Virus record (IMG/VR): IMGVR_UViG_3300013101_000047
Location: 1 to 33,299 of that record
Direction: 5' to 3' (one strand)
Length of the DNA: 33,299 bases
Source of the DNA: a virus
Shown: positions 11,360 to 32,435 of the stretch, piece by piece
Position numbering within the stretch: position 1 is the stretch's first letter
How the letters are laid out: every line of letters starts with the position of its first letter
Program-made: the position numbers and the translations under genes
Notes under the pieces: generated by a model
The model's input: only the letters and a program-made list of their open reading frames with translations
What the model was told of the DNA's origin: nothing
Database searches by the model: none

Positions 11360-11995
11360 CTACTTGCCTCCCTTCGCGGTTTCACGAGACTCGGCGTAGA
11401 TGCGGGCGTTGAGGTCCTGGTCCTCTTTGAGAACTTCGGAGTAGGCGGCTTCGAAGGTGATGCCCTTCGCAGTCGCTTTCTCTTTCGCCTTTGCTGTGGC
11501 CTGGGCCTCTGCGCTGTTGAGCGACTCGGTTCCGAATCCGCCCTTGCCGAGTTCGGTGAACAGGTCACCGGATTCGATGCGGGCGTTCGCCTGGGTCATG
11601 AACCCGAGGAACAATTCGATCTCGTCGTCGCTGAGCGCGGATTCGATCTTGCGGAGCAGCGGACCGAGGTCGTCGGCTTTGGCGATGTTGGGCATCGTCT
11701 CTGCCTTCGTGACGTACTCGGCGTTGAGGCGAATGTCCTGCTCGGCCTTCGCCGTTGCGGTCGCCTCTGCTGCTTCTGTCTTTGCGGCGTCAATCTCGGC
11801 CTGCTGCTTCTGCAGCAATTCGATCACGGCGGGTGAGGCGTCCTTGAGAACGTCTGCTTCCTCCGTGACTTCGGCCGACGCGCCGTCGTCCTTCGTGGCC
11901 TCCTCGACAGCGGCCTCGAGGCTGGCAACGTAGGCTTGCGCCTCGTCACTCAGCGTCTCGCGCTGCTCGTCGGTGAGGGTAATCGGCTCCGGCAT
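11360..11995 (-). CDS. Possible internally initiated scaffold
   Basis: The 211-codon C-terminal part of the preceding frame, starting at an internal ATG with AAGGGAG five bases upstream. The start coincides with the transition from a Pro-rich linker (DMEPAPPTVSRAMTNRPTKG) to a sequence typical of phage scaffolds (TLTDEQRETLSDEAQAYVAS). Nested scaffold genes are known for lambda-like and HK97-like phages. Whether the short form is really made cannot be told from sequence. Confidence 0.45.
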   Translation of the reverse strand: MPEPITLTDEQRETLSDEAQAYVASLEAAVEEATKDDGASAEVTEEADVLKDASPAVIELLQKQQAEIDAAKTEAAEATATAKAEQDIRLNAEYVTKAETMPNIAKADDLGPLLRKIESALSDDEIELFLGFMTQANARIESGDLFTELGKGGFGTESLNSAEAQATAKAKEKATAKGITFEAAYSEVLKEDQDLNARIYAESRETAKGGK

Positions 11996-12580
11996 CGGAT
12001 CTCCCTTCGTCGGCCGATTCGTCATTGCTCTGCTTACCGTAGGAGGCGCAGGCTCCATATCGGCGGGTGGTCCGTCAAACGGGTCCCTCCGGTACAAACC
12101 TGGCTCCTCATCCTCCAGCCGCTTCCTGAACGCGTCGAGCGCCTCTCCGATAGCGGAGGACAATGCGATGCGTTCCTCGCGGTTGAGGAATCCTTCTCCG
12201 AAGTGGCCGTCGGCCATTTGCGTGAACGCTGCGTGGAGGTTCGCTTCGAACCACTCGCCGACGTTGCGGGCCTTCAGCATCTCTTCGACCTGTTCGTCGT
12301 CGAGGCCTTCGAGCGCCTTCTCGACAGCGGCCTTCACGTCGTCGAGCGCCTTCTCGGCGTTCGTGATGACGATCTCCGCTGTCTCCGACTCGGCGGTCTT
12401 GCCGGTGAGGGTGGCGACGAACTTCTGCCACGCCGAGGCCTTCTTGCCGTCGTCGGTTTCGGCGGTCTTGGTGATGAGAATGTCGGACGGGCCGTTAGCC
12501 CCGGCGCCCACCAGACCGACCGATTCGAGTTCGTGAATCAGGAGCCGGGCGTCCGCCTCGTAGGTGTCGTTTCTAGGCAT
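11360..12580 (-). CDS. Prohead scaffold protein (with protease-linked N-terminal region)
   Basis: A 406-residue protein. Residues about 10-32 (ADARLLIHELESVGLVGAGA, then NGPSDILITK) resemble the element that normally closes XkdF-type proteases. The second half (about 196-406) is highly charged, Ala/Glu/Lys-rich and predicted coiled coil, as expected for a scaffold. The gene overlaps the protease gene by eight bases. An internal ATG at 11995 (MPEPITLTDEQRETLSDEAQ) has a strong AAGGGAG site and would give a separate 211-residue scaffold, like lambda C/Nu3. The scaffold guides capsid assembly and is removed by the protease. Confidence 0.75.
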   Translation of the reverse strand: MPRNDTYEADARLLIHELESVGLVGAGANGPSDILITKTAETDDGKKASAWQKFVATLTGKTAESETAEIVITNAEKALDDVKAAVEKALEGLDDEQVEEMLKARNVGEWFEANLHAAFTQMADGHFGEGFLNREERIALSSAIGEALDAFRKRLEDEEPGLYRRDPFDGPPADMEPAPPTVSRAMTNRPTKGDPMPEPITLTDEQRETLSDEAQAYVASLEAAVEEATKDDGASAEVTEEADVLKDASPAVIELLQKQQAEIDAAKTEAAEATATAKAEQDIRLNAEYVTKAETMPNIAKADDLGPLLRKIESALSDDEIELFLGFMTQANARIESGDLFTELGKGGFGTESLNSAEAQATAKAKEKATAKGITFEAAYSEVLKEDQDLNARIYAESRETAKGGK

Positions 12581-13034
12581 CGATTGGAACCCTTCTCGCT
12601 GTGCCGACGATGCTGAACATGGAGTAGGTGCCGTCCTTGACGAGGCGCCAGGCGTCCGGGTCGTCGATCTTCATTCCGATCCACCAGCCCGTCGGGATGA
12701 TGGCCTTGAGAGCGGCGAGTCGTCCGTCGACGTCGTCGGCCTCGTCGAGCGCTGCGGAGTGTCGGGCGATGGCTTCGAGTTTCTCGTCGTTGAACACCAT
12801 CGACTCGACGACCCTGGCGACACCGAAGTTGACGTGCTGCTCGTCGCCGGAGCGGGAGTGCAGCATGTAGCGGTAGACGGCGTCCTCGATCATCGCGATC
12901 GCCTCGGGCGTATCGATCGTCTCGTTGTGAGAATCGACTACTTCGTCGCCGTCGGTGCGGAGGAACACGTTTGCCCATCCGAACGCCATGCGGCGGTCCT
13001 CGTCGACCTTGCTGATCGGTACCTGGATCTCCAT
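12573..13034 (-). CDS. Prohead protease, XkdF family
   Basis: A 153-residue protein with the XkdF-type serine peptidase pattern: IPISKVDEDRR-like opening (VPISKVDEDRRMAFGWANV), VVDSHNETID, RYMLHSRSGDEQH, VVESMVFNDEKLE and the closing GWWIGMKIDDPDAW and MFSIVGTARR. His59 or His67 and Ser78 are the best candidates for catalytic residues. It would mature the prohead by cleaving scaffold and capsid delta regions. ATG at 13034 has no ribosome-binding site, but the late promoter element puts the transcript start one base upstream, so translation is probably leaderless. It is the first gene of the head-assembly operon. Confidence 0.85.
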   Translation of the reverse strand: MEIQVPISKVDEDRRMAFGWANVFLRTDGDEVVDSHNETIDTPEAIAMIEDAVYRYMLHSRSGDEQHVNFGVARVVESMVFNDEKLEAIARHSAALDEADDVDGRLAALKAIIPTGWWIGMKIDDPDAWRLVKDGTYSMFSIVGTARRVPIDA

Positions 13035-13080: not shown

Positions 13081-13200
13081 GAGAGCGACGACGTTGGCCG
13101 CTGTGGGGCGGGCGGGCGTCGGGTGCGGTCGGTAGCCCAGTCGCTTCCTGGCGGGCCGTCAATGCCGATGATGCCGGACTGAGGGATTGTCGGAGATCAT
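13081..13200 (-). repeat. Intergenic repeat module, copy 1
   Basis: This gene-free stretch carries two sequence blocks that recur at 31657-31789 in swapped order. Block A is an AGCGACGACGTTGGCC-type sequence (about 13083-13099), followed by GGTCGGTAGCCCA (about 13127-13139). Block B is GATGATGCCGGA, then GGGATTGTCGGAGATCAT (about 13165-13200). Further GAT-rich inverted motifs continue to about 13270. A shorter relative of block A also lies at about 23848-23862. Function is unknown; it could be an operator, a boundary or a recombination scar. Confidence 0.5.
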
Positions 13201-13306
13201 CGAGATTGTCCGGGCCGGATGACGCGCACAATCTTCGATGACGCGCGCATTCGAGATCATGGGCATTGACGGCGGCGGACGACGCGGATGCGCGGGCGAC
13301 AATCTT

Positions 13307-13511: not shown

Positions 13512-14348
13512 CTATCCGAAGAGTCCCTTCTTGCGGCAGACCGGGCCGATGCCGAGGTCGATGCTCTTCTCGTCCTCGAGGCGCCGTCCGCAGGCTCCGC
13601 AGGTCCCGGTGAGTTGTCCGTAGCGGGCGAGCGCTGCGGCGGGGGTGGTGAGGATGGCTTCGAGCGCTTCCTCGATCTTTCCCTGGTAGCGGCCGTCGGG
13701 GCGTTGGATGCCGTAGCGGCTGCCGTTGCCGTATTCGGCTGCGTCCTTCACGAAGATGTATCCGTGCCAGCGGCCGGGCTTCGTTACGTTGTCGATCTTG
13801 ACCTTGAGGCGTCCGTCGCTCGTCGGGTCTGCGTAGCGGCCGGAAGGCAGGCTCGAAAGGTCGAGGCCTTCCTGGGCAGGCTTCGGTGCGGCGGCGGGCT
13901 TGGCTTCCTGGGCGGGGCAGGCGATGCGGTGCCGTACCTGCCAGCGTCCGTCGATCCTGAAGATGTGGCCTTCGTCTGCGGGGACGTTGGCGTGGCAGAG
14001 TTCGCAGTCGCCTGCGTACTTGTTGCGGCGCAGCCCGAGCCGTTGCTCTTCCCTGCGGTCCTCGGCGTCGGTGTCCTTCGTGGCGGCGGCGGCGACACGC
14101 TTCTTGGTAGCGGCGATCGGGGTAGCGGCCGGTGCTGGCTCGTCGCTTTCCCATTCTCCGTCGACCTTGCTCCAGGTGGCCGGGTCCTCGGTGTAGTCGG
14201 GGTGCTTCGGGTTCCAGTTGGCGTCGTGGGTGAATGGCTCGTCCGGGTCCTGCGTCGCTACGAGGTAGTCGAAGCGGGCCTTGATGGCTGCGCCGTGTGC
14301 CCGGTTCCGTTCGAGGCGGGTCTGCTTGGTCTTGGCGGCGGTGGTCAT
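13512..14348 (-). CDS. Accessory zinc protein with DUF6011-like C-terminus
   Basis: A 278-residue protein. The N-terminal 100 residues are charged and low-complexity. A CELCHANVPADEGHIF motif with later HRIAC (about 113-143) forms one possible zinc site. The central part (about 160-225) contains KVKIDNVTKPGRWHGYIFVK. The last 35 residues (TGTCGACGRRLEDEKSIDLG, then IGPVCRKKG) match the DUF6011-type zinc ribbon, often found in phage and plasmid proteins linked to DNA metabolism. The start ATG at 14348 overlaps the previous stop as ATGA. The activity is unknown; nucleic-acid binding is plausible. Confidence 0.65.
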   Translation of the reverse strand: MTTAAKTKQTRLERNRAHGAAIKARFDYLVATQDPDEPFTHDANWNPKHPDYTEDPATWSKVDGEWESDEPAPAATPIAATKKRVAAAATKDTDAEDRREEQRLGLRRNKYAGDCELCHANVPADEGHIFRIDGRWQVRHRIACPAQEAKPAAAPKPAQEGLDLSSLPSGRYADPTSDGRLKVKIDNVTKPGRWHGYIFVKDAAEYGNGSRYGIQRPDGRYQGKIEEALEAILTTPAAALARYGQLTGTCGACGRRLEDEKSIDLGIGPVCRKKGLFG

Positions 14349-14622: not shown

Positions 14623-14762
14623 TCCGGTCGGGTGGGGTTGGGAAGAGCAACGACCGAAGCGGCCTCCGTACTCCCTGGGCGAGCCACCAAGCACACCTGG
14701 GAGCAGCGAATGGAGGACCGCTCCGGCCGTCTACCCGATGGCCACCATAGACACCGGGCCGG

Positions 14763-14834
14763 TAGCGGTGGGAGGACTCGAACCTCCGACCTGTGGATTA
14801 TGAGTCCACCGCGCTGCCTCTGCGCCACACCGCG
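14763..14834 (-). tRNA. tRNA with CAU anticodon (Met or Ile2)
   Basis: A 72-base cloverleaf on the minus strand. The D stem is GCGC/GCGC, the anticodon stem GTGGA/TCCAC with loop CTCATAA (anticodon CAT), and the T stem GGAGG/CCTCC with loop TTCGAGT. The acceptor stem pairs in six of seven positions, with C1 opposite T72. The anticodon stem lacks the three G-C pairs of initiators, so it is elongator Met, or Ile2 if the C is lysidinylated. The CCA end is not fully encoded. It lies between a head gene and a moron operon. Confidence 0.9.
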
Positions 14835-28027: not shown

Positions 28028-28063
28028 GGTGGCTCCTTGTGTGGTGGCTGTCTGCATGACCGC

Positions 28064-28102
28064 ACTGTACCTCGGGCGGTACCGTACCGTCAAGTCAATC
28101 TA
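28064..28102 (-). promoter_or_regulatory. Accessory promoter P6
   Basis: On the minus strand TAGATTGACTTGACG carries the -35 (28093-28088). An 18-base spacer and -10 TACAGT (28069-28064) follow. The +1 at 28057 is the A of an ATG. It lies six bases after the CCA end of the tRNA-like element. Confidence 0.75.
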
Positions 28103-28107
28103 GTCGG

Positions 28108-28183
28108 TGGTGCCAGCCGGAGGATTCGGACCTCCGTCGCTGCCCGATATCACTCGGGGCTTCCAGGCGGCCGAGCCGCTGGC
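28108..28183 (-). tRNA. Degenerate tRNA or tRNA-like element with encoded CCA
   Basis: A 76-base element. GCCAGC at its start pairs with GCTGGC before ACCA. The T arm is GGAGG/CCTCC with loop TCCGAAT, and an anticodon-like stem CCCG/CGGG carries an 8-base loop (AGTGATAT) that could expose GAT (Ile). Position 8 is G rather than U, the seventh acceptor pair is G-G, and the best D stem (GGCT/AGCC) abuts the acceptor. This looks more like a tRNA mimic or decayed tRNA than a normal tRNA. It forms the 3' end of the gene-free, promoter-led region upstream. Confidence 0.55.
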
Positions 28184-29053
28184 GTGTATTGCAGAGCCTG
28201 TTCTACTCGATCCTCGGGCCGCAAGGTCTGGATCCTGATCGCTGCTTGCTTCAGGTCTTATCTCCCCGCTTGGCCTGGCGTCGCCTCGCCTCTCCGGGCG
28301 GCGGGTCCGTTGCTCGTACCAGGAGCGCAGGGTGGTCTGCCGTCCGAAGCGTTGAGCGCTGTCTGCCTGCCGCCGCCGTCATCGGGCGGACGTTTGTATA
28401 GGAGGAGGTTCCCCGCCTCTCACTGCCGTACTTACTCTCGACGATGGCCTGGCCTCGCTTATGCGTCCCCGGTATCAAGCCGGGTCCGTCCCGTTGGGAT
28501 TTCGCTCAGGAGCCTCGCCGCCATTCACAACCCCGGTCGTCCTTCGCCTTGCGTTCTCGCTTGGTGGGCGTCCCGAGAGTCGAGTAGAGCATGCTCTGCT
28601 TCGTGAAGCAGCCGCTCATGGGAAGGTCCGAGCCTGTTGCGTTTCCCTCGTCCTGGGTCGGTGATCAGTCCGGCCGCTGTGGGGAGGTACTACGCAGGCT
28701 CGCTGGTCCAGGTGGCGCTCTCGTCTCTCGCGGGCTTGCACCGCCCTGGCGGGTCGTGGTACGTCCCGGTCCTCGTCCCGGCGCACTCGCCGCCATCGGC
28801 TCGATCGCTTCTTGTCTGGCCTCGCACCAGATCCTGGGGCTAGGGGCTGCTTGTCGCCGGTTCCGCTTCGGGCCATGTGCCCTGGCGTTACCGGCGCTGC
28901 TTGCTTTTGCAACCCTCCCATGAGCGTCTGCTTCGTTCGTGTGGTGGCAGGCTCCCTCCCTGTGGGGCAGCGTGCCGCTGTGGGGTTCTGACCCGGTGTT
29001 GGTCCCGCTGCCCCTGCCGGTGGTCTTCTTGGCCCTTGCGGGTCCCTCGGCAC
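28108..29053 (-). ncRNA. Candidate large structured non-coding RNA ending in tRNA-like element
   Basis: About 946 bases running from the predicted +1 of P7 (29053) to a CCA-ended tRNA-like element. No frame here has protein-like composition; the longest, 145 codons from GTG 29053, is Arg/Pro-rich with no hydrophobic pattern. The minus-strand RNA is purine-rich and has many compact hairpins: CCC-GCAA-GGG at 29033-29042, CAGCG-GCA-CGCTG at 28968-28980, CTGCTT...AAGCAG at 28596-28611, CCCGG...CCGGG at 28468-28484 and TCCC-GTT-GGGA at 28489-28499. A palindrome AGAGCATGCTCT lies at 28586-28597. Size, phage setting and tRNA proximity recall the giant GOLLD and ROOL RNA classes, but membership is unproven. 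Confidence 0.6.
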
Positions 29054-29059
29054 AACCAG

Positions 29060-29097
29060 AACATACCTCTGCCGTTCCTATACGTCAAGTCAATCTA
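29060..29097 (-). promoter_or_regulatory. Accessory promoter P7 (ncRNA)
   Basis: On the minus strand TAGATTGACTTGACG carries the -35 (29088-29083). A 17-base spacer and -10 TATGTT (29065-29060) follow. The predicted +1 at 29053 is the G of a GTG, but the frame it opens does not look coding. A short hairpin (AGGCCG/CGGCCT) overlapping the terminase stop lies just upstream. Confidence 0.8.
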
Positions 29098-29128
29098 TCC
29101 GAAAGTTTCAGGTTTCTTTTCAGGCCGG

Positions 29129-30574
29129 TCAACGGCCTCGCCACTTCGACGTAGCGGCAGCGGTCTCCGGGGCGGCGACGATGCCAGCCTGCGTCGACCG
29201 ACAGGCCCACGCCATAGCACCAGCGACGAACGAATCCGGCGGGTGGTTCGCTCGGCCGGACCCGTACAGGTCAGCGACCGTCGTGTAGCGATGCTCGTCG
29301 TAGGCGAAACGGATCCTCGGATACAGAATGGCGCCGTCCTCGATGGCGGCGGTGTAGTCGGAGAACAACCCTGCTCGGCGTTGCCCTGCCATCACGATCC
29401 CGTCCGGCGTGTAACCGCCCTTCGTGAACTCGAGGTAGTCGTCGATGACGTCACCGACGCCGGTCGAGTCGTGGGCGGTCGTCAACTGGCGTCGCACGTC
29501 GTCGACACCGGGCGTGTAGTCCGAGAGGCGGTCCTCGTAGGCTTCGACCATGACAGGCCAGCGGCGGCGGCCGAGGCGTTGCCAGGCGACGCACAACCAG
29601 ACGCCGTCCTCCCGGATGCGGAACGTGGCGATGACGGTCCAGTCCTGCTCCTTCGCCCAGTCGACTCCGGTGTAGTAGATAGCGCCGTCGATCGGTTCCT
29701 CGATGACGATCAACTCGCCTTCCGCTCCCTCGAACACTCCGAGCGCCGGGTCGAAGGCTTCCTCGATGGCTTCGAAGTCGACGGCTCGGCCCTCGACGTT
29801 GGGTTCTTGGAGTTCGTATTCGACGTCCCACATGTGCTGCGGGATGCGTCCCTTCGTCGATACGATCTCGTCGTCGGCGAGCCAGCCGCCGGGGTTCGTT
29901 GCGCGGGACTCTCGGTAGCACCACTCGTAGATGGGCCAGCCCTTCTCCGGCGCGAGTTCCTCGAGGATGTACGAGAACGTCTTGTTGGGGTAGTGGTGCG
30001 TCGACGAGATGGTGGTCTGCGACGGGATGCCGGGCGTGCCGATCGGCTGGCCGAGCGCCGACTCGAATACGAACTGGTCCATCTCGTCAGCCTCGTCCAA
30101 GCGGAGCCGCTCCGGGTGGGGTCCTCGAGCGGACTTTGTGGAAGCGGCGAGGACAGAGATGTGGCCGCCGTTGTTGAGCGTCGTCTCCCGGTGCGTCGGG
30201 TCGGAGGCGAGGAGGTCTGCTGGTGCGCCGTTCGTGTCCCACGCTCCCTTCGTGTACTCGTGGCCGAGTTTGGATTGGTCGAGGGACCCGCCGAGAAACG
30301 ACACCCTGGCGCCGAGGACGGAGATCTCGGTGAGCGACAGGTGCGCGAGGGTGAACGTCTTACCGGCGAGGCCTCGGGATGCTTTCCAGACGGTGACTGG
30401 GTAGCGGGCGAAGTAGGAGTCGGCGAACGCTGAGAACGGGGCGACGTGGTTGTCGCACACCTGGACCCTGGGGATCTCGATGCCCCACAGGTACCGGACG
30501 AGCCACCAGAGTTCGTTGTCGGTGGTGGGCCGGGCGATGACGTGTGCCCTGCGGCGTACCTCGGCGAGCGTCAC
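29129..30574 (-). CDS. Terminase large subunit
   Basis: A 481-residue DNA packaging motor. The ATPase domain has a Walker A-like KASRGLAGKT (64-73), Walker B RLRLDEADEMD with Asp160-Glu161, and a coupling STHHYP region. The nuclease domain has GVDWAKEQDW (Asp305), HDSTGVGD (Asp369) and HPPDSFVAGAMAW (Asp447). It starts at GTG 30574, whose GTGA overlaps the stop of a 22-codon frame. The same frame upstream (ASIYRRIPARIGQPEQVEP) looks protein-like but has no ATG or GTG. It docks on the portal, packages concatemeric DNA and cuts it. It is the last gene before the ncRNA unit. Confidence 0.93.
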   Translation of the reverse strand: MTLAEVRRRAHVIARPTTDNELWWLVRYLWGIEIPRVQVCDNHVAPFSAFADSYFARYPVTVWKASRGLAGKTFTLAHLSLTEISVLGARVSFLGGSLDQSKLGHEYTKGAWDTNGAPADLLASDPTHRETTLNNGGHISVLAASTKSARGPHPERLRLDEADEMDQFVFESALGQPIGTPGIPSQTTISSTHHYPNKTFSYILEELAPEKGWPIYEWCYRESRATNPGGWLADDEIVSTKGRIPQHMWDVEYELQEPNVEGRAVDFEAIEEAFDPALGVFEGAEGELIVIEEPIDGAIYYTGVDWAKEQDWTVIATFRIREDGVWLCVAWQRLGRRRWPVMVEAYEDRLSDYTPGVDDVRRQLTTAHDSTGVGDVIDDYLEFTKGGYTPDGIVMAGQRRAGLFSDYTAAIEDGAILYPRIRFAYDEHRYTTVADLYGSGRANHPPDSFVAGAMAWACRSTQAGIVAAPETAAATSKWRGR

Positions 30575-31790: not shown

Positions 31791-32435
31791 TCACTTCGAA
31801 CCGTCCGGCAGCCGGGGCACAGTGTCCGGGTCCAGGCCTTGTGCCAGGATCAGAGCGTCGACGTACTCTTCCGACGTTCCTCCGCCGACAGTGAAGATCA
31901 CGTCGTCCCGCTGCTTCGACGTGGCCGTCAGGATCGCGGTGACTCTCGGGGCGTCCAAGCCGAGCAGGTCGCCTCGCCGTATCTGGATCTTCATGATGCG
32001 GTCGTAGTAGTGCAACTTGCTCCGACCGGACGGGTCCCGCTGTAGCGCCATCCGGATCCGGTACTCGTCCTCGCGCAGCGATTGGAGTTCCTCGATAGCC
32101 TCGTCGGCGATAGCGTCCAACTGGTCGTCGCGCCACTGGTCCCGGACGGCGGTGACGTCCTTGTAGAGCGTGTCCATCGATATGTCGAGTTGCTCGGCGA
32201 TGACACGGTGCGGGACCTTCGAGCGCAGCAACTGGGCGACGTCGACCCGGCGGGCGGCGATCTCGTCCTGCCGGGTCCTCGAGTGTTGAGCGGCGGCTGC
32301 CTTCTGGCGCGAGTACTTGTCCGGGTCCAGGCCGGACGCCTTGTAGGCGGCGACCCTTCCACGGACCTTCTCGCCTCCCGGCGTGCGATACCAGCCGCCT
32401 CCCAGGACGGCCGGTTCAGTCGGTTTCTTGACCAT
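31791..32435 (-). CDS. Terminase small subunit
   Basis: A 214-residue protein. After a basic N-terminus (RGRVAAYKASGLDPDKYSRQ) a helix-turn-helix is visible at about 60-98 (VDVAQLLRSKVPHRVIAEQL, then DISMDTLYKDV). A coiled-coil segment (AIADEAIEELQSLREDEYRI) and the RRGDLLGLDAP element (153-163) common in TerS proteins follow. It recognises the packaging site and presents it to the large subunit. ATG at 32435 overlaps the preceding gene by 20 bases. The methyltransferase and two small zinc proteins separate it from TerL. Confidence 0.8.
   Translation of the reverse strand: MVKKPTEPAVLGGGWYRTPGGEKVRGRVAAYKASGLDPDKYSRQKAAAAQHSRTRQDEIAARRVDVAQLLRSKVPHRVIAEQLDISMDTLYKDVTAVRDQWRDDQLDAIADEAIEELQSLREDEYRIRMALQRDPSGRSKLHYYDRIMKIQIRRGDLLGLDAPRVTAILTATSKQRDDVIFTVGGGTSEEYVDALILAQGLDPDTVPRLPDGSK

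Follow-up and report, generated by a model that had tools for sequence, protein, structure and literature searches.

To our knowledge, few giant RNAs of phages have been described, and GOLLD and ROOL, which belong among them, have no known function. GOLLD (RF02032) is phage-encoded, exceeds 800 nt, has two structural domains and is associated with tRNAs, while ROOL (RF03087) is a large, ornate RNA of phages or prophages that is often located near tRNAs (PMC12286853). The lytic phage ICP1 expresses an orphan noncoding RNA (ncRNA) of ~800 nt from a large transcribed stretch lacking open reading frames (ORFs), likened by its authors to GOLLD and ROOL (PMC7567579). In human nuclei, the long ncRNAs (lncRNAs) MALAT1 and MEN-beta are followed by tRNA-like elements (mascRNA and menRNA), where a cut by RNase P makes their 3′ end (PMC11693755), and PMC12941219 names NEAT1 and MALAT1 as the only lncRNAs that use the tRNA-processing machinery. 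Lastly, in tmRNA a larger RNA includes a tRNA-like domain that has a T arm and CCA.

Here we examined a locus that shares some of these traits in a virus record (IMGVR_UViG_3300013101_000047; "the window" is the whole stretch analyzed, 33,299 nt). We consider it probable that the locus specifies a promoter-driven, two-domain giant ncRNA outside the known classes, with a 3′ end defined by RNase P. Unlike GOLLD, this putative RNA does not match the GOLLD model and bears a degenerate tRNA-like element at its 3′ end; unlike ROOL, it has no match to the ROOL model and is longer. Expression was demonstrated for the ICP1 RNA, whereas the present RNA is predicted from sequence, and ICP1 has no tRNAs. 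MALAT1 and MEN-beta differ in being human, whereas our candidate belongs to a bacterial virus, has an encoded CCA, and has only a predicted cleavage. Compared with tmRNA it is much longer, has no tag frame that we could identify, and gave no tmRNA match with ARAGORN or Rfam.

Genomic context and coding potential

The 33.3-kb record contains tailed-phage structural genes, and nearly all of its genes are tightly packed on the minus strand. Family matches identified tape measure and portal genes, with the nearest named relatives of the portal in Arthrobacter phages (42 to 45% identity), and a major head protein and a Mu-F-like head protein are also encoded. The largest gene-free gap of the window (28058-29128) holds the candidate, which directly follows the terminase large-subunit gene and sits between the terminase and portal regions. 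Its flanks are intact promoter-led genes and it is not inside a gene.

29129 to 30574, terminase large-subunit gene, with relatives at 40 to 51% identity
28108 to 29053, minus strand, predicted giant ncRNA, ~946 nt with its tRNA-like tail and ~870 nt without

Region 28108-29053 almost certainly makes no protein. Scored against the codon usage of seven long phage genes, every ORF of at least 35 codons on either strand of 28108-29060 was negative (best, -5.7), and the GC 3-periodicity seen elsewhere in the phage was missing. The 145-codon frame (28616-29053) scored -42.3, compared with +16.7 to +503 for genes called in the phage; its GC content by codon position was flat (0.72/0.68/0.64), a family search gave no match, and no relative was found encoded elsewhere. 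It was rejected as a gene on its codon score, lack of periodicity and lack of relatives. These results bear out the original prediction that the region has no credible protein gene and that its minus strand is purine-rich (56 to 61% A+G).

A promoter of the phage's own family without a translation leader

29060 to 29093, minus strand, member of the promoter family peculiar to the phage, TTGACTTGACG...TATGTT, with TTGACG-17-TATGTT at 29088-29060
5363 and 6827 (plus strand) and 14618, 24678, 27831, 28098 and 29093 (minus strand), the seven-copy promoter family T(A/T)GACTTGAC...GAGGTA....
28064 to 28098, minus strand, next copy of this family, immediately past the CCA, starting the following small-gene operon

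The claim that the region is promoter-led held, with seven matches to the family in the window versus 1.16 expected. The predicted start of transcription from the 29093 copy is ~29053, and an ATG or GTG lies at the predicted +1 in six of the seven copies. Behind each of the six sister promoters comes a GCCACC-rich leader followed by GGAGCCACC..ATG, a translation start in repeated use in this phage. The 29093 promoter has no such leader, and the nearest GGAGCCACC that follows it is at 28033, behind the next promoter. On the minus strand between the ncRNA and that next promoter, no terminator-like site was found. A leader-like motif of the sister promoters, GCCACCACAC..GAACGAAGC, recurs in the RNA just before helix A (28930-28953, minus strand), possibly as a shared binding site or by chance.

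Two predicted domains closed by long-range helices

28940 to 29053, minus strand, 5′ piece with a GCAA hairpin and a 9-bp helix (29014-29006/28972-28964), pair probabilities 0.98 to 0.99, z of -1.5 when folded alone
28912 to 28934, minus strand, 5′ arm of helix A, from inverted repeat and pair probabilities
28855 to 28896, minus strand, hairpin inside domain A with A-rich internal loops, pair probability about 1.0
28659 to 28672, minus strand, hairpin CGG-ACUGAUCA-CCG, pair probability 0.97
28605 to 28627, minus strand, 3′ arm of helix A, closing domain A (28605-28934)
28568 to 28599, minus strand, 5′ arm of helix B, containing a 12-base palindrome, AGAGCATGCTCT
28191 to 28222, minus strand, 3′ arm of helix B, closing domain B (28191-28599)

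The strongest evidence for the RNA came from two long-range helices absent from the original prediction. Helix A has 23 bp and a distance of 284 nt between its arms; for helix B these values are 32 bp and 345 nt. Both are imperfect, have pair probabilities of 0.96 to 1.0, and are the two best inverted repeats of the whole window (score 17 each); when the region was dinucleotide-shuffled 10,000 times, the top score was 15. Pairs with a score of at least 16 at a spacing of 150 to 700 nt numbered only five (two of them above 17) across 1.46 Mb of other DNA, most of it from phages, so that two score-17 repeats within 0.75 kb are far from chance. The mismatches in both helices, as opposed to perfect identity, would be more in keeping with an evolved RNA than with a recent duplication. 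Each helix begins with 7 bp followed by an A.G mismatch, and two hairpins have UGAUA loops; either similarity may be chance.

Claims of stable folding stood only in part. The whole region folded with z = -3.64, but this is weaker evidence than claimed, because comparable excess stability occurred in 2 of 25 control windows from other parts of the phage (600 nt, coding sequence included), at z = -5.8 and -7.1; folding energy is thus supporting evidence only. The -7.1 window (11400-11999, minus strand) is coding and lies in a 406-aa ORF (11360-12580) that has no family assignment. By domain, A reached z = -6.4 as minus-strand and -3.9 as plus-strand RNA, and B -2.75 and -3.85, respectively. Among the predicted unpaired bases of the RNA, 49% are A. 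A GNRA tetraloop that had been read from the sequence was recovered (CCC-GCAA-GGG, 29042-29033, pair probability 0.98). The 12-base palindrome proposed to pair between molecules is also present; however, it lies within the 5′ arm of helix B, with which such dimer pairing would therefore compete. A different 6-nt palindrome, UGAUCA, occurs in the 8-nt loop of the 28672-28659 hairpin and is a candidate self-kissing loop, or a chance occurrence.

A tRNA-like 3′ tail

28108 to 28183, minus strand, tRNA-like element of 76 nt with encoded CCA, 6-bp acceptor stem, and 5-bp T arm with TCCGAAT loop

The tail (GCCAGCG...GGCTGGC-A-CCA, with T arm GGAGG-TCCGAAT-CCTCC) has the 76-nt length of a standard tRNA. 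Its D and anticodon arms have decayed, the anticodon loop has six bases, and T-loop position 55 is C rather than T. At its free minimum the element folds as a cloverleaf that leaves ACCA single-stranded, and the acceptor stem is rivalled by an alternative hairpin just 0.6 kcal/mol higher. Neither ARAGORN, also at relaxed thresholds, nor Rfam RF00005 called the element a tRNA, plausibly because of the decayed D arm and six-base anticodon loop; the sole tRNA called in the window by these methods was a tRNA-Met (14761-14834). A test that required T arm, acceptor and CCA together nevertheless substantiated the predicted tRNA-like element with encoded CCA, matching once in the window and once in 10,000 shuffles, and in 2.9 Mb of control DNA (both strands) yielding four matches, each of which ARAGORN called as a true tRNA.

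The acceptor stem, T arm and CCA are the tRNA parts that RNase P needs, and the tail retains 6 of 7 acceptor pairs, a 5-bp T stem with 7-nt loop, and the CCA. Dependence of RNase P on RCCA is also described in PMC12710915.

Membership in known RNA families

The region was searched with the Rfam 15 covariance models to E ≤ 10, with GOLLD and ROOL also run as single-family searches. GOLLD (416-position model, covering its conserved 3′ region) gave no match at E ≤ 10 in the region or the whole window; in 246 genomes from the phylum of a Nanopelagicales MAG (L155) it gave no match over the cut-off, so this search had no positive control. ROOL (574-position model) likewise had no match at E ≤ 10, and no positive-control genome exceeded its cut-off. 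Other families, including group I and II introns, ribozymes, tmRNA and large bacterial RNAs, had no match at E ≤ 10 except HIV-1_DIS, which at E = 1.2 and 19.4 bits (gathering score, 35) was judged chance. ARAGORN did not detect a tmRNA either. Accordingly, the part of the original prediction that described a large structured RNA with a tRNA-like end was well supported by single-sequence evidence, but the kinship it suggested with GOLLD and ROOL, for which it had suggested these Rfam searches, had no Rfam match, and membership in either family is not supported.

Search for relatives

The evidence for the ncRNA comes from one sequence, with no homologue in the collections searched. blastn of the region against phages gave no homologue, and against plasmids only a 35-nt chance match. 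Terminase relatives in viral contigs, with their whole records, and in bacterial genome assemblies had no homologue of the RNA region, nor did five DNA patterns recover one, drawn from helix A, from the loops of two hairpins, from an internal stretch and from a hairpin of domain A. Three pattern matches with somewhat longer similarity (L132, L154 and L134) were judged chance after reading frames were inspected; L132 and L154 adjoin a reverse-transcriptase gene. Approximately 395 genomes each from the phylum and class of the Nanopelagicales MAG yielded one 42-nt chance match, in coding sequence. Two Arthrobacter phages that share the terminase-to-portal order lack an insert of this kind there, which makes the RNA look like an accessory gain.

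Proposed maturation and alternative explanations

That 28108-29053 is a structured ncRNA we hold with high confidence from its sequence, in which the promoter, the lack of coding capacity and leader, both helices, the tRNA-like tail and the lack of a minus-strand terminator-like site can be read directly. Our confidence in its processing and function is moderate to low. The phage would transcribe a dedicated large ncRNA from its own promoter, which would fold into two big arms, domains A (28934-28605) and B (28599-28191), with a long imperfect helix closing each. RNase P cleavage is proposed because there is no terminator-like site and the surviving tRNA parts are those this enzyme needs; the host RNase P would most likely cut at a predicted site, 28184/28183, 7 nt after helix B. 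This cut would free a mature RNA of ~870 nt from a transcript that otherwise runs into the next operon, and the product may accumulate stably and, guessing by analogy with GOLLD and ROOL, take part in scaffolding or assembly while the phage infects its host. We tentatively raise the further possibility of a new class of giant phage RNA in which RNase P forms the 3′ end by cutting at a degenerate tRNA, a bacterial counterpart of MALAT1/mascRNA processing, with a mature two-domain RNA that perhaps self-assembles or scaffolds phage functions.

Two alternatives accept the RNA and concern its kinship or its tail. A divergent relative of GOLLD or ROOL, or an RNA working like them, would form a self-assembling RNA-only cage with subunits joined through the 28672-28659 and GNRA loops. 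The published description (PMC12286853) agrees in size, phage location, presence of two domains and tRNA character, and the UGAUCA loop suits such joining, yet the lack of a match to either model at E ≤ 10, the fair likelihood of meeting a 6-nt palindrome in one loop or another by chance, and the absence of a nearby tRNA island (the single tRNA gene is 13 kb off) make this unlikely. The ncRNA could also be real while the tail is a decayed phage tRNA gene, placed behind it by chance and without any role in processing. Phages often carry decaying tRNAs, and here the element has degraded D and anticodon arms and was not called by any detector; against this, the parts read by RNase P survive while the rest has decayed, and the element lies 7 nt after helix B, where a terminator-like site is missing, which leaves mere coincidence doubtful.

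Three other explanations were weighed. Position directly after the terminase gene, the strand symmetry of inverted repeats, and a domain B that folds no better as minus than as plus RNA would suit a packaging, origin or recombination site in which the repeats act as DNA, but arms 284 to 345 nt apart make poor cruciforms, and the promoter, A-rich unpaired bases, stronger transcribed-strand domain A and tRNA-like tail favor RNA, so that a DNA element is very unlikely. Slightly less probable again is the remnant of an intron, ribozyme or mobile element: the region is a large structured noncoding insert between terminase and portal regions that distant relatives do not have there, but no group I, group II or ribozyme model of Rfam matched at E ≤ 10, and the region has intact promoter-led genes on its flanks and is not inside a gene. 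A leaderless gene for the 145-aa frame, with GTG exactly at the predicted +1, is scarcely credible, given its codon statistics and lack of relatives, and an ATG or GTG at this position is shared by five of the six sister promoters, whose GGAGCCACC..ATG signal comes further down.

The probable RNase P-processed ncRNA lies outside known families and carries an apparent built-in processing signal; a phage lncRNA processed by the tRNA machinery would, if true, be new. If the processing is real, a general rule would be to seek degenerate tRNAs behind long ORF-less stretches of phage genomes.

Other features of the window

Elsewhere in the window, an ORF on the minus strand (31791-32435) matched PHROG 'RNase E' (E = 4e-10) and is a possible phage RNA-processing protein. 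A 120-nt long hairpin with nested inverted repeats (13155-13273, minus strand; z = -4.25) was also observed in a gene-free gap of 478 nt that separates 12573-13034 from 13512-14348.
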